51,305 bases of DNA. Origin: Paludibacteraceae bacterium. Its GTDB lineage: Bacteria; Bacteroidota; Bacteroidia; Bacteroidales; Paludibacteraceae. The notes under the pieces were generated by a model, which did not search any database, had not been told where the DNA came from, and saw only the letters and a list, made by a program, of their open reading frames with translations. The stretch spans positions 1 to 51,305 of the forward strand of contig JAFSQL010000003.1 of NCBI GenBank assembly GCA_017446585.1, read 5' to 3'. Positions 15,644 through 47,345 of this stretch are shown here, piece by piece; within the stretch, counting starts at the first letter, position 1; every line of letters begins with the position of its first letter. Position numbers and translations under genes: made by a program.

Positions 15644-15913
15644 ATGGCAAAAAAATCACTTATCGCGCGTGAGGTAAAGCGTCAAAAATTGGTCGCTAAG
15701 TATGCCGCAAAACGCGAACAACTGAAGAAGGAGGGCAACTATGAAGCACTTCAGGCTCTCCCCAAGAACGCAAGCCCAGTCCGTTTGCACAATCGTTGCA
15801 AGGTGTCGGGTCGTCCGAAAGGTTATATGCGTCAATTCGGCATTTCGCGTATTCAATTTCGCGAACTCGCTTCCAAGGGTTTGATTCCTGGAGTGAAGAA
15901 AGCAAGCTGGTAA
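15644..15913 (+). CDS. rpsN: 30S ribosomal protein S14, last gene of the cluster here
   Basis: 89 residues, the long form without the zinc-binding Cys set (a single Cys remains in [19 protein letters not shown]). [20 protein letters not shown] is the C-terminal signature. S14 is a late 30S head protein. The next genes in nearly all bacteria are rpsH and rplF; here none follows and a strong terminator begins 50 bases after the stop. The remaining spc and alpha genes must be elsewhere in the genome. Confidence 0.97.
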
Positions 15914-16010: not shown

Positions 16011-16175
16011 CAGGAATTAGCATGTCTTGGGAAGACGGGGGAAAACTTCGGATTGTTTTTTTTCGAAAAGTAGTTTTTAGTGAGGTAAATGGGAAGATCG
16101 GATGACAAGTGTGTTTGAAAAAAAAATAGTATTAAAAAGTTTTTTTGGGGGGTGAACGTGTCTTGTCAATTGTGA
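16011..16175. other. Homopolymer-rich spacer at the ribosomal operon break
   Basis: These 165 bases between the terminator and the crcB stop have runs of eight T, nine A, seven T and six G. I find no ORF and no recognisable piece of rpsH or another ribosomal gene on either strand. It looks like decayed DNA at an old rearrangement junction, which is inference. Confidence 0.5.
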
Positions 16176-16635: not shown

Positions 16636-17736
16636 ATGGAAGACTTCATCGTATCGGCACGGAAATATCGTCCAACGACGTTTGACAGCGTTGTGGGTCA
16701 GGAGGCGTTGGTAGCCACGTTGAAGAATGCCATTGTCTCGAACCGATTGTCGCACGCCTACTTGTTCTGCGGTCCGAGAGGTGTCGGAAAGACGACGTGC
16801 GCTCGTATTTTCGCCAAGGCGATAAACTGCGAGAATCGGACTGTTGATGGAGAGGCCTGTGATGAGTGCGTATCCTGCAAGAGTTTTTCGGACGGGCGTT
16901 CGATGAATATTCATGAGTTGGACGCGGCGTCGAACAACGGAACGGAGGATATACACCAATTGATGGACGCAGTGCGCGTTCCACCGCAAATGGGGAAATA
17001 TAGCGTCTTCATCATAGACGAGGTGCACATGTTGTCAACGGCGGCGTTTAACGCTTTTCTCAAGACTTTGGAAGAGCCGCCAGCATACGCCATCTTCATC
17101 TTGGCAACGACGGAAAAACAGAAGATACCTGCAACGATATTGTCAAGGTGTCAGATTTATGATTTTTCCCGCATTTCGATAACGGACATTACCAAGCAAT
17201 TGTCAAAGGTGGCGGAACGTGAGGGTGTCACCATAGACGAGGAGTCGCTCAATGTCATTGCCCGTAAGGCTGACGGAGGAATGCGTGACGCATTGTCAAC
17301 GTTTGACCAGGTAGTGAGTTATTGCGGCAAGACGGTGAAGTATCAAGACGTGATAGCGAACTTGGGCGTTTTGGACTATGAGTATTATTTTCGTCTTGTC
17401 GGTAACATGCTGAATGGCGAGACGGCGGATGCCTTGTCGCTGTTTAATGAAGTTCTTGAAAAGGGATTTGACGGAGGACGATTTGTCGAAGGACTGTGTG
17501 AACATTTCCGCGACTTGATGGTCAGCGTTGACCCAAAGACAACGGCATTGCTTGAAGTGGGCGGGGAGACAGCGGCAAGATACGCTCAACAGGCACAGGA
17601 GTGCGGAGCGGAGTTGTTGTATGACTCGTTGGACCTTGCCAACCAATGCAGTTTGGCATATCGCGGAGCGGCGAACAAGCGGTTGCTTGTGGAGTTGCTG
17701 CTTGTGCGACTGACACGCTTAAAAAAAAAAGATTAG
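16636..17736 (+). CDS. dnaX: DNA polymerase III subunit gamma (short dnaX product)
   Basis: The zero-frame product is 366 residues starting MEDFIVSARKYRP at 16636. It holds all of the AAA+ clamp-loader ATPase: Walker A GPRGVGKT (46-53), four zinc Cys (65, 75, 78, 81), Walker B VFIIDEV (124-130), sensor SRC (170-172), and the collar helices ending VELLLVRLTRL. It stops right after domain III, at a TAG that follows ten A (17721-17730). This is the gamma-like form. The clamp loader opens the sliding clamp at primed sites on the replication fork. The frame after the A run, shifted by -1, encodes the missing tau domains, so both products are expected from one gene. Confidence 0.93.
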   Translation: MEDFIVSARKYRPTTFDSVVGQEALVATLKNAIVSNRLSHAYLFCGPRGVGKTTCARIFAKAINCENRTVDGEACDECVSCKSFSDGRSMNIHELDAASNNGTEDIHQLMDAVRVPPQMGKYSVFIIDEVHMLSTAAFNAFLKTLEEPPAYAIFILATTEKQKIPATILSRCQIYDFSRISITDITKQLSKVAEREGVTIDEESLNVIARKADGGMRDALSTFDQVVSYCGKTVKYQDVIANLGVLDYEYYFRLVGNMLNGETADALSLFNEVLEKGFDGGRFVEGLCEHFRDLMVSVDPKTTALLEVGGETAARYAQQAQECGAELLYDSLDLANQCSLAYRGAANKRLLVELLLVRLTRLKKKD

Positions 17737-18524
17737 CTGAAAGCGGTAAGCGTTGGCAGGAGTTGTTTCCGAGACTGTTGGAGGACGCACTGCCAGCGGC
17801 ACTATTTCAACCGACCAAACGTCAGGAATCGTCGAGAGAAACGGCGATGGCTCAGGAACAACCTGTGACGCAAACAAAAGTGAGCGGCACGGGAAAGTGT
17901 CTTGCGCCGGAAACGACAGCGCAGGATGAGACGGGGGCGGTAGTAGCACAAGAACCGTCGGCGCAAAGCGTGGCGGGTACAAGTATTACAACGGAGGAGA
18001 GACTGGCAAACGAAGTGGCGACGGACGGTAGCGCAGGAGAAAAACGTGTTGCCATGCGCAGGCGGAATGGCAGACTGATGTTGAAAGACGAGGTGTCAAT
18101 CAGGAAAGAAGTGTCGGGTCAAAACCAAGAAGCCAAGTCGGAGGAGAAAACCAAGCGTGACAAATCGTTGAATCAAGAGGACTTGCAGCGCGCATGGATA
18201 GGCTATGCCAACGATCATAGCGAGCATGTCATATTGGTGCAATCGATGCGCTCATCGTTGCCTGTGTTGCAAGAGGACGGGGTTAGTTTTGACGTGACAT
18301 TGCTCAGCGACGGGCAGCGGAAAGAGATGGAAGGTGTCCGTCCGGACATCATGAAATACCTGTCAGACAAGTTGGAAAACGACAACTTGAAGATGAACAT
18401 CGTGATGTCGAAGATGGAAGGTCCGCTGAAGATAAAAACCCAATCGGAGTTGTGGCGTGAATTGGTAGAAACGAACAGTGACGTGGCGGACTTGGTGGAA
18501 CGTCTTCAACTGACGTTGAAATAG
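16636..18524 (+). CDS. dnaX: DNA polymerase III subunit tau (frameshift product of dnaX)
   Basis: Reading through the A10 run with a -1 shift (or with one extra A in the mRNA) gives about 629 residues. After KKKR the new frame continues LAESGKRWQELFPRLLED, a Pro/Gln/Thr-rich linker (about 17800-18060), a charged stretch, and a C-terminal domain from about 18175 with QRAWIGYANDHSEHVILVQS and YLSDKLENDNLKMNIVM. This last part resembles the polymerase-binding end of tau in Bacteroidetes, which joins the two polymerase cores to the helicase. The downstream frame has no in-frame start that would give a sensible separate protein, and its codon use matches its neighbours. A sequencing error in the A run is the main alternative. 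Confidence 0.85.
17721..17730 (+). promoter_or_regulatory. A10 slippery sequence in dnaX
   Basis: Zero-frame codons are TTA AAA AAA AAA GAT TAG. The run offers A AAA AAA heptamers for -1 ribosomal slippage, or an A tract long enough for RNA polymerase slippage as in Thermus dnaX (nine A). ACGCTT just before (17715-17720) can pair with AAGCGT (17748-17753), putting the run in a loop. Confidence 0.8.
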
Positions 18525-45580: not shown

Positions 45581-46473
45581 TATCCATCATCATCTGTAGC
45601 CGAAAGGCGGACATATCGGACGAACTGAAGACGAATATCGCGACAACGATTGGTTGCGAGTATGAGTTGTGCGTAATAGACAACTCAAGCAATGAGTATA
45701 ATATCTTTACTGCCTATAATGAGGGAGTCCTTCGTGCAAAGGGGGATGTATTATGCTTTATGCATGAGGATATAGTATTCCATTCGTCAGAGTGGGGGAG
45801 TGTTGTAAGTGAGATATATAAGCGAGAGAAGAAGTTAGGTGTAATTGGCGTTATCGGAGGACAGTTCTTGCCGAAGACTCCCACATCGTATTGGGAAGGC
45901 GGATGTGGCTTAGGGCAGATTATACAAGGAATAACAAAGCAAGGACAGTACAGAACGTTCCTGAATGGGAGAAAGATTGAAACCCTGGATGCCACGTATG
46001 CGCTCGTAGATGTTGTGGCAGTGGATGGACTATGGATGTGTGCGCCGAGGTGGCTGTTTGAAGAAGGTATCATTCGGTGGGATTGTGATACTTTTGACAA
46101 TTTCCATTGCTACGACATGGATATATGCATACAGACGATTCAAGCCGGATATCGCGTGGCGGTTGTAGGTGGAGTTGTGATTGAGCATCAGTCGTATGGC
46201 AATACGGATACGAATTATTGTAAGCAAAGTCAGAAGTTGTTTGATAAATGGAAGGATGAATTGCCGCTGGTGCGTGGCAGAGAAATGTCGGAGCAAGAGA
46301 TAGAAGAACGTACCCGAATGGTGACACAAATGCGGAGCTATCTTGTAATGTATAATGCGACTCAAGATAGATGTAATAATATGCTTCGTTCCAAAGCCTA
46401 TCGGATAGGAAAATTTTTATTGAAGCCGTTTATTTGGCTTAAGCGGTGTAAGGTGTATAGTGTAAGGAAATGA
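45577..46473 (+). CDS. Glycosyltransferase-like protein (GT-A fold)
   Basis: 298 residues. MISIIICSRKADISDELKTN and CVIDNSSNEYNIFTAYNEG, with VLCFMHEDIVFHSSEWG in place of the usual DxD, place it in a GT2-like group often annotated as Streptomycin biosynthesis StrF-like or as glycosyltransferase. Its C-terminal tail, SKAYRIGKFLLKPFIWLKR, is nearly the same as that of the preceding glycosyltransferase. ATGA overlaps on both sides. Confidence 0.78.
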   Translation: MISIIICSRKADISDELKTNIATTIGCEYELCVIDNSSNEYNIFTAYNEGVLRAKGDVLCFMHEDIVFHSSEWGSVVSEIYKREKKLGVIGVIGGQFLPKTPTSYWEGGCGLGQIIQGITKQGQYRTFLNGRKIETLDATYALVDVVAVDGLWMCAPRWLFEEGIIRWDCDTFDNFHCYDMDICIQTIQAGYRVAVVGGVVIEHQSYGNTDTNYCKQSQKLFDKWKDELPLVRGREMSEQEIEERTRMVTQMRSYLVMYNATQDRCNNMLRSKAYRIGKFLLKPFIWLKRCKVYSVRK

Positions 46474-47345
46474 TTTCAATTGACATCATATTATTTTGCT
46501 ATAAGCAGGAGCGGTATATAGAGCAAGCACTGCGTAGCATTTATGCGCAGGAGTTGCCTGAAGATGTGTCAGTGCGTGTCATTGTAGCGGACGACGCATC
46601 GCCGGATAATACGCTTGAAGTTATCAAACGCCTTGCTTCGGAGTCTCCATTTCCGATTGTGTATCTGGCAGAAGAACCGAATATGGGTATCAGCAAGAAC
46701 TATAAACGCAGTTTTGCCACCACGGAGGCAGACTATGTGGCGATATTAGAAGGAGATGATTATTGGCTACCAAACCATTTGTCGCAGCATATTGAGTTCT
46801 GGACGCGGCATCCCGATTGCCCGATGGTAATGAGCCGAATCACTTGTATGCATGTCAGAGCGAACGGCGGTGAAAATATTTTGCCAAACGGCGAATGGAG
46901 TTATGCTTCAGATCCGTATTGGGTCAGTGTAAGGAAGCAAATTGGGGAAGGTAATCAATTGGGGAACCTCTCCGCTTGTTCGTTTAGGGGTGATTATTTA
47001 AGGAATCTCCCTTCCGCGTTGTTTGATTTGCCCATTGCGGATTGGATGATAGGTGTCATGATGGCGGAACATGCGCCATTCGCATTGCTCAAGTCATCAT
47101 CATCAGTCTATCGGGTAAAGGATAGCGGTGTATGGGCGGGACGCAGTAAATGGAAGCAACATAAAATAATGCTCGAATACGCGGATAAATATGATGCTTT
47201 TCAGCAAGGTAAATACCATGATGATTGGCGACAATTCAAAAAAAAATGTTGGCGAGACGTTTGTCGCAATTGGGTACATTATTTGCCATCGTGGTTGCAA
47301 CTACTTTGGGGAAAAATAAAAAATAAAGAGGAAAGAAATGGGTAA
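46470..47345 (+). CDS. Family 2 glycosyltransferase
   Basis: 291 residues. ISIDIILFCYKQERYIEQAL, VIVADDASPDNTLEVIKRL, and VAILEGDDYWLPNHLSQHIE, the GDDYW form of the DxD typical of this GT2 subgroup. It ends with a short basic tail. Overlaps the next aminotransferase by eight bases. Confidence 0.9.
   Translation: MISIDIILFCYKQERYIEQALRSIYAQELPEDVSVRVIVADDASPDNTLEVIKRLASESPFPIVYLAEEPNMGISKNYKRSFATTEADYVAILEGDDYWLPNHLSQHIEFWTRHPDCPMVMSRITCMHVRANGGENILPNGEWSYASDPYWVSVRKQIGEGNQLGNLSACSFRGDYLRNLPSALFDLPIADWMIGVMMAEHAPFALLKSSSSVYRVKDSGVWAGRSKWKQHKIMLEYADKYDAFQQGKYHDDWRQFKKKCWRDVCRNWVHYLPSWLQLLWGKIKNKEERNG

Follow-up and report, generated by a model that had tools for sequence, protein, structure and literature searches.

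Two-frame dnaX at an A10 run in a Paludibacteraceae bacterium: probable transcriptional slippage at a site whose genomic frame varies among relatives

The window analyzed here (a stretch of 51,305 nucleotides, positions 1 to 51,305 of contig JAFSQL010000003.1, assembly GCA_017446585.1 of a Paludibacteraceae bacterium) carries a dnaX gene written in two frames that meet at ten consecutive A, which raises the question of whether such a gene yields both gamma and tau and by which mechanism. The run stretch, TTAAAAAAAAAAG, contains the ten A at 17721-17730 and stands in the context TTA AAA AAA AAA GAT TAG; the A10 with the frame split was confirmed. The initial annotation had placed the TAG six bases after the run, where we counted three bases between them, and had estimated about 265 codons for the -1 frame, which indeed is open from upstream of the run to the TAG at 18522-18524 and encodes 264 aa. 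Both off-frames close within two codons past the run (1 and 2 codons, respectively). The features of the locus are as follows.

16636..17736, + strand, gamma frame of dnaX, ATG to TAG, 366 aa, AAA+ domains I-II plus domain III (ORF, NF011531, Pfam, PDB)
17715..17720, + strand, 5' arm of a 6-bp pairing around the run (probably incidental)
17721..17730, + strand, A10, putative slippage run (sequence; relatives with A9-A13 at the same position)
17730..18524, + strand, putative tau-specific part (264 aa, -1 frame), a linker followed by the C-terminal domain (NF011531, alignment A1)
17733..17741, + strand, off-frame double stop box TTA GCT GAA, read as L-A-E when in the tau frame, with TAG and TGA out of frame
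17734..17736, + strand, TAG closing the gamma frame (sequence)
17738..17740, + strand, TGA closing the +1 frame (sequence)
17748..17753, + strand, 3' arm of the 6-bp pairing (probably incidental)

The identity of the two halves was examined by profile search against NF011531, the model of Bacteroidota DnaX. The gamma half matched positions 1-365 of 614 (660 bits, 4.4e-198) and the -1 half positions 380-613 of 614 (72.6 bits, 3e-20), the two halves spanning the whole model in order. Neither of them alone reaches the curated cut-off of 685, and such genes may be called truncated or frameshifted. Pfam detected DNA_pol3_delta2, lid and gamma3 in the gamma frame and placed the end of domain III at residue 362, four residues before the end of gamma, as expected by the initial annotation, according to which the zero frame ends just after this domain. 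Against PDB the gamma frame matched clamp-loader gamma/tau chains (2.9e-69); the tau C-terminus had no significant match there, the one obtained (E 0.83) being to a designed protein. An alignment of 34 C-termini (A1) contained two invariant and two nearly invariant positions, with 14-28% identity between the C-terminus of the window and the 33 others, and it is on the NF011531 match and this alignment that we call the C-terminus tau-like. The assembly (1.2 Mb, 51.6% complete) contains a single dnaX locus, the other matches being weak AAA+ relatives with 24-49% identity over parts of the AAA+ region. The next ORF begins 13 bases past the tau stop.

To place this gene among its relatives we used 241 non-redundant dnaX loci, having left out eight loci with identical gene parts. 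A run of at least nine A was present in a 135-nt zone around the site in 114 of the 241, a share that, like those of the frame states below, is not a population frequency since loci were partly picked for being split; only 9 such runs occurred in the 370,235 other bases examined of the same genes. Run-bearing genes with a tau frame of at least 120 codons numbered 107, and 113 run-free genes served as controls. Left out of both sets were nine genes with A7-8, six cut by contig ends (L127, L132, L136, L144-L146), four with short or displaced tau frames (L211, L212, L213, L215) and two run-free genes whose longest frame happened to be -1. Among the 107 genes the run (A9-A13) lies at the same place, and the tau frame is 0 in 55, -1 in 31 and +1 in 21. 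As for the displaced cases, in L212, L213 and L215 the tau frame lies further downstream, past several A runs, or is broken, and the slip site may have moved; L211 (G384, a 1.2 Mb genome) has an A10 with tau in frame 0 and a DnaX of only 471 aa, that is, with a much shortened tau.

Within the genus of the window, four of six genomes gave a dnaX match at E 1e-50; all four have A10 at this place and all are split, with tau in the -1 frame in the window and G002 and in the +1 frame in G001 and G003. At the family level a dnaX match was found in 275 of 300 genomes, and the sets were assembled from split and continuous genes fetched by region: one set and about half of a second were picked for a short frame, while two more, one repeat aside, were taken as continuous. 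Among the matches listed, split run genes belonged to six genera (g1, g2, g4, g5, g8 and g27), and three genera of the window's family (g1, g2 and g8) each contained both the -1 and the +1 directions. Of the family genes fetched, 69 had tau in frame 0, namely 44 with at least A9 at this place, 8 with A7-8 and 17 with neither; four further run-bearing family genes were cut by contig ends. The site commonly has the form ..RLCQLxD(E/Q)KKK.

Beyond the family, 190 of 197 genomes of the order had a dnaX match. The order set consisted of 28 loci taken for short open frames, 24 of which were clean splits at A10-A12 (17 in -1 and 7 in +1) and the other four L211, L212, L213 and L215, and of 32 taken as high-scoring continuous genes. 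The class and phylum sets lie outside the 241 loci and include some from already-fetched genomes (L252, L253 and L255 in the former; L302, L303 and L312 in the latter). With dnaX matches in 195 of 197 genomes of the class, 20 loci picked as split in other orders had tau in -1 (17) or +1 (2), the remaining one, L297 (G663), being a split-looking dnaX of 372 aa with no A run of seven or more in the searched zone. Another 29 top-scoring new loci of the class comprised 16 with at least A9 and tau in frame 0 (L256 is cut by a contig end), one with A7 and 12 with no run; six of the 29 belong to the window's own order, and for the 23 of other orders the corresponding numbers are 15, 1 and 7. In the phylum (matches in 116 of 118 genomes), 27 new loci, 26 of them of the window's class, were distributed as 12 in state 0, 12 in -1, one in +1 and two without a run, L326, the sole locus of another class among them, being without a run. 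Short open dnaX frames were also listed in other classes, for example in G745, G730 and G736.

The initial annotation described dnaX of this order as usually a single frame. This holds for 79 of 80 Bacteroidales-type loci (with Prevotella, Paraprevotella or Bacteroidaceae titles), which are continuous and in whose zone no run of nine or more A was present, L029, with a Paludibacteraceae title, being the split exception; it does not hold for the many other genera with split genes.

We then analyzed what follows the run. Counted in the tau frame, both non-tau frames are closed within three codons past it in 71 of the 107 genes, within five in 96 and within eight in 100, whereas double closure within five codons was seen at 6.2% of 11,182 control positions taken downstream in these genes and at 4.6% of 1,130 positions in the run-free controls (residues 365-375 of the 113 genes). 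The frame left untouched by a -1 ribosomal shift has a stop within eight codons in 54 of the 55 state 0 genes and in 27 of the 31 state -1 genes, the run-free figure being 21 of 113 (Fisher, 2e-25 and 3e-12, P values that ignore shared ancestry), and in state +1 the frame that is neither that of gamma nor that of tau is closed in 19 of 21 genes against 44 of 113 (2e-5, shared ancestry likewise ignored). Exceptions exist: in four of the 31 genes in state -1 the +1 frame stays open for 15-36 codons, and 11 of the 107 genes miss the five-codon closure. The box NTRRNTGAN occurs in 43 of the 107 genes, at 131 of the 11,182 control positions and at none of the 1,130 run-free positions; since fewer than half of the genes have it, we describe the feature by closure distance and regard the box as one means of attaining it.

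Codon choice at the site was compared with that elsewhere. In all 97 genes having KKK there in frame 0, the first eight bases are all A, while lysine codons elsewhere are AAA in 71% and none of four KKK elsewhere in the genes is all A. A9 is not rare in the window itself (5 matches against 1.96 expected, with 12 of 100 shuffles reaching as many). A chance A run as an explanation of the site was dropped, given the scarcity of such runs elsewhere in the genes, the closure counts and the codons used for KKK.

To follow the frame through descent, a maximum likelihood tree (quick search) was built from 172 gamma parts over 340 columns, the site excluded. The four labels need 41 changes on this tree, run versus none 18 and frame among run genes at least 23, counts in which gain is not told from loss and which rest on a tree with 56 of 169 inner branches weak; even when only starred branches are counted, states 0, -1 and +1, each set against all others, need a minimum of 17, 13 and 9 changes. 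The sequences flanking the run are nearly the same in the sisters L108 (A11, state 0) and L109 (A10, state -1), whose runs are one A apart and whose end branches measure 0.033 and 0.045, and L206 (A12, +1) and L207 (A10, -1) are consistent with the same run-length rule; the pairs L194/L202 and window/L004 need indels outside the run. Long end branches were observed for the dnaX of the window (0.57) and its genus mate L006 (0.53), the median of the 172 genes being 0.1.

The tau frame has a dN/dS of roughly 0.06 to 0.13 in four close split pairs with dS below 1.6 (L123/L131, L131/L133, L124/L125 and L117/L119); the other nine pairs are saturated, or nearly so, in dS. Because dN is far below dS in those four pairs, the out-of-frame part of split relatives behaves, as judged by substitution rates, as a translated protein. 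For the window, dN of tau was 0.98 against L004, 0.80 against L005 and within 0.80-0.98 for these and L110, dS being saturated and, in the comparisons with L004 and L005, third positions only slightly in excess; thus it is the match to NF011531 and the 34-sequence alignment of C-termini, not rates, that make the case for selection on its own tau frame.

Taken with the conserved place and length of the run, the closed unused frames and the sisters one A apart, purifying selection on the tau frame of split relatives supports the expectation of the initial annotation that the A10 site should yield both gamma and tau. We consider it quite probable that this occurs by slippage of RNA polymerase on the run, as in Thermus, giving gamma and tau whatever the DNA frame. 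RNA polymerase would slip on the A10, and the mRNAs produced would depart from the template in their number of A, in either direction. It follows from the sequence that translation of a faithful mRNA would end at the TAG, yielding gamma, which has just the clamp-loader ATPase and domain III, and that gain of one A would lead to tau with its C-terminal domain, as would loss of two A; the third register would halt at once at the TGA, giving a gamma-sized product. Contrary to what the initial annotation supposed, a true A9 would not restore a single frame, since tau lies in -1. As slippage would feed all three registers, the frame written in the DNA would be nearly free to drift, the run and the two off-frame stops being kept. 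Slippage itself, the gamma:tau ratio and the function of gamma are points that we infer. In other bacteria the tau C-terminal domain tethers the polymerase (PMC3290774).

The initial annotation had left open whether slippage is ribosomal or transcriptional, and the evidence favors the latter: orthologues use both directions, which is a criterion for transcriptional slippage (PMC3711429, section 10), and ribosomal stimulators are scarce or not above controls. Slippage of variable direction is described for runs of nine or more in PMC6260861. According to the same source, A runs cause less slippage by E. coli RNA polymerase than T runs do, and no deletion was seen with this enzyme on poly(A), for which runs of up to 8 were examined; insertions at A7-A11 are cited there as occurring at least twice as often as deletions, so that genes in state +1 may make less tau. 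Counting against our reading are the many relatives, 113 of which we used as controls, with no run and a single continuous frame.

Ribosomal frameshifting would also give a second product, whether the ribosome slid on poly(A) or slipped in tandem by -1 at A_AAA_AAA/G, as happens in E. coli dnaX, and we regard it as an unlikely basis for the site. The heptamer A_AAA_AAA/G is contained in any run of nine or more A, E. coli dnaX itself uses A_AAA_AAG (PMC5009743), and a -1 shift could contribute in states 0 and -1. However, +1 is needed in 21 of the 107 genes, two of them in the window's genus, and -1 slippage cannot supply it; the -1 direction is thus not conserved, and the frame that -1 shifting leaves unused is also closed. 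E. coli ribosomes slide strongly on A11 (PMC4363877), a length found in 21 of the 52 split genes (14 + 7), with A12 in two more; yet in vitro this sliding is slight at A9-A10 as reported there, and 29 of the 52 have A10.

Stimulators were searched for upstream and downstream of the run. Among genes in state -1, the window included, none of 31 had a Shine-Dalgarno-like 4-mer at 2-18 nt upstream; one of 21 did in state +1 and two of 55 in state 0, against 13 of 113 run-free genes. Mean downstream folding z was -0.32, -0.71 and -0.24 for states -1, +1 and 0, against -0.46 in controls; it was thus slightly lower in state +1, where three of 21 genes fell below -2 compared with seven of 113 controls, a point against our reading. 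In the window z was -0.62, and one of 31 genes in state -1 fell below -2, with the caveat that folding scores can miss a local stimulator. Downstream RNA structure was not retained as a general feature, hairpins being no better than in controls. A stem enclosing the run was likewise discarded in that role: the 6-bp pairing of 17715-17720 with 17748-17753 pointed out in the initial annotation is exactly complementary, but across the group mean stems of 4.19, 4.67 and 4.56 (states -1, +1 and 0; 6 in the window) hardly differ from 4.31, 4.27 and 4.40 after shuffling. Transcriptional slippage therefore stands well ahead as the explanation, to which ribosomal help may contribute.

A decaying pseudogene, or an error of assembly or sequencing at a run that in truth gives one frame, could be suspected in a draft genome that is only half complete, at a homopolymer (a type of sequence prone to error) and in a gene on a long branch. 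This is very improbable, as the same split recurs in dozens of genomes (the 52 of the 107 set), including four single-contig genomes (G475, G422, G666 and G763), the stops in unused frames sit right behind the run, the tau frame is under selection in split relatives, and this is the only dnaX copy found in the assembly. Translation of the -1 frame as a separate protein from its own start, for which the ATG at 17646 opening that frame in the window might speak, is scarcely credible, given that 31 of the 52 split genes have no ATG, GTG or TTG from the opening of the tau frame to 15 codons past the run, that 44 of the 52 tau frames open merely 2-15 codons ahead of it, and that an own start requires neither a pure A run nor closed off-frames.

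Transcriptional slippage in dnaX has its precedent in Thermus, at an A9 (PMC5009743, PMC1088944). As described for Thermus thermophilus, a sense-strand A run lies in dnaX, both non-tau frames stop close behind it and gamma and tau arise from one gene. The same elements are found in the window, with an A10 at the gamma/tau boundary just past domain III and with both non-tau frames closing behind it (TAG at 17734, TGA at 17738), and relatives in state 0 share the Thermus layout. The difference is that tau is the single genomic frame in Thermus, whereas in the window it lies in -1 (it is in frame 0 in 55 of the 107 genes), and that here three genomic states exchange, with runs of 9-13 A.

A two-ORF (-1) dnaX at A10 is already known. 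Antonov et al. 2013 (PMC3711429, section 23) reported 17 such genes in 12 genera, nine of them with A10, and named Chlorobi; their two adjacent ORFs with a -1 shift at poly-A, where tau needs recoding, correspond to the layout of the window, and slippage was proposed there too. All 17 are -1, and that section has no +1 class, frame exchange or double off-frame stop. Hence the claim in the initial annotation that the arrangement was undescribed for Bacteroidales holds only in part, the two-ORF form having been published in the 2013 survey, which included 20 Bacteroidetes species; among the matches listed from the open-licence literature, titles and abstract openings contained no report of a +1 dnaX, three-state exchange or paired off-frame stops in this group.

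Two other systems invite comparison. E. coli dnaX makes the same two products from one gene with an A-rich shift site, but has tau in frame 0, a short A run, an upstream Shine-Dalgarno and a downstream stem-loop (PMC3711429, PMC5009743), stimulators that are not enriched here. In Blochmannia frameshifts at homopolymers in the DNA are tolerated as slippage may restore the frame, dnaX being one case (PMC3017870); there the indels are chance events in AT-rich symbiont genomes and affect the tau-only part of dnaX, in contrast to the site described here, which is conserved, lies where gamma and tau part and has placed stops.

Extending the model of transcriptional slippage to the class, we lean towards a dnaX that is agnostic to frame, in which slippage would serve every register, the frame would drift nearly neutrally among three states, and selection would keep the run and the double stop that truncates the two non-tau registers; absence of the run in some lineages, such as those with Prevotella-like genes, would then mean absence of gamma. 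If so, these run-less lineages would be a natural experiment on the purpose of gamma, the need for which has long been disputed (PMC5009743, PMC3290774), and since related species differ in having the run, its role could be approached by comparison and knock-out. Although essential, dnaX may have a genomic reading frame with almost no constraint on change, and it is a strong candidate for large-scale programmed transcriptional slippage.

Other homopolymers in the window were also noted. The stretch 16025-16150, which follows the ORF ending at 15913 and precedes the next, has T8 and A9 runs; neither a tRNA nor an ORF of at least 60 aa lies in it, and it looks like ordinary intergenic sequence. 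A second sense-strand A9, at 47238-47246, lies in frame within an ORF of 291 aa (46470-47345), about 33 codons before its stop, and could slip as well.
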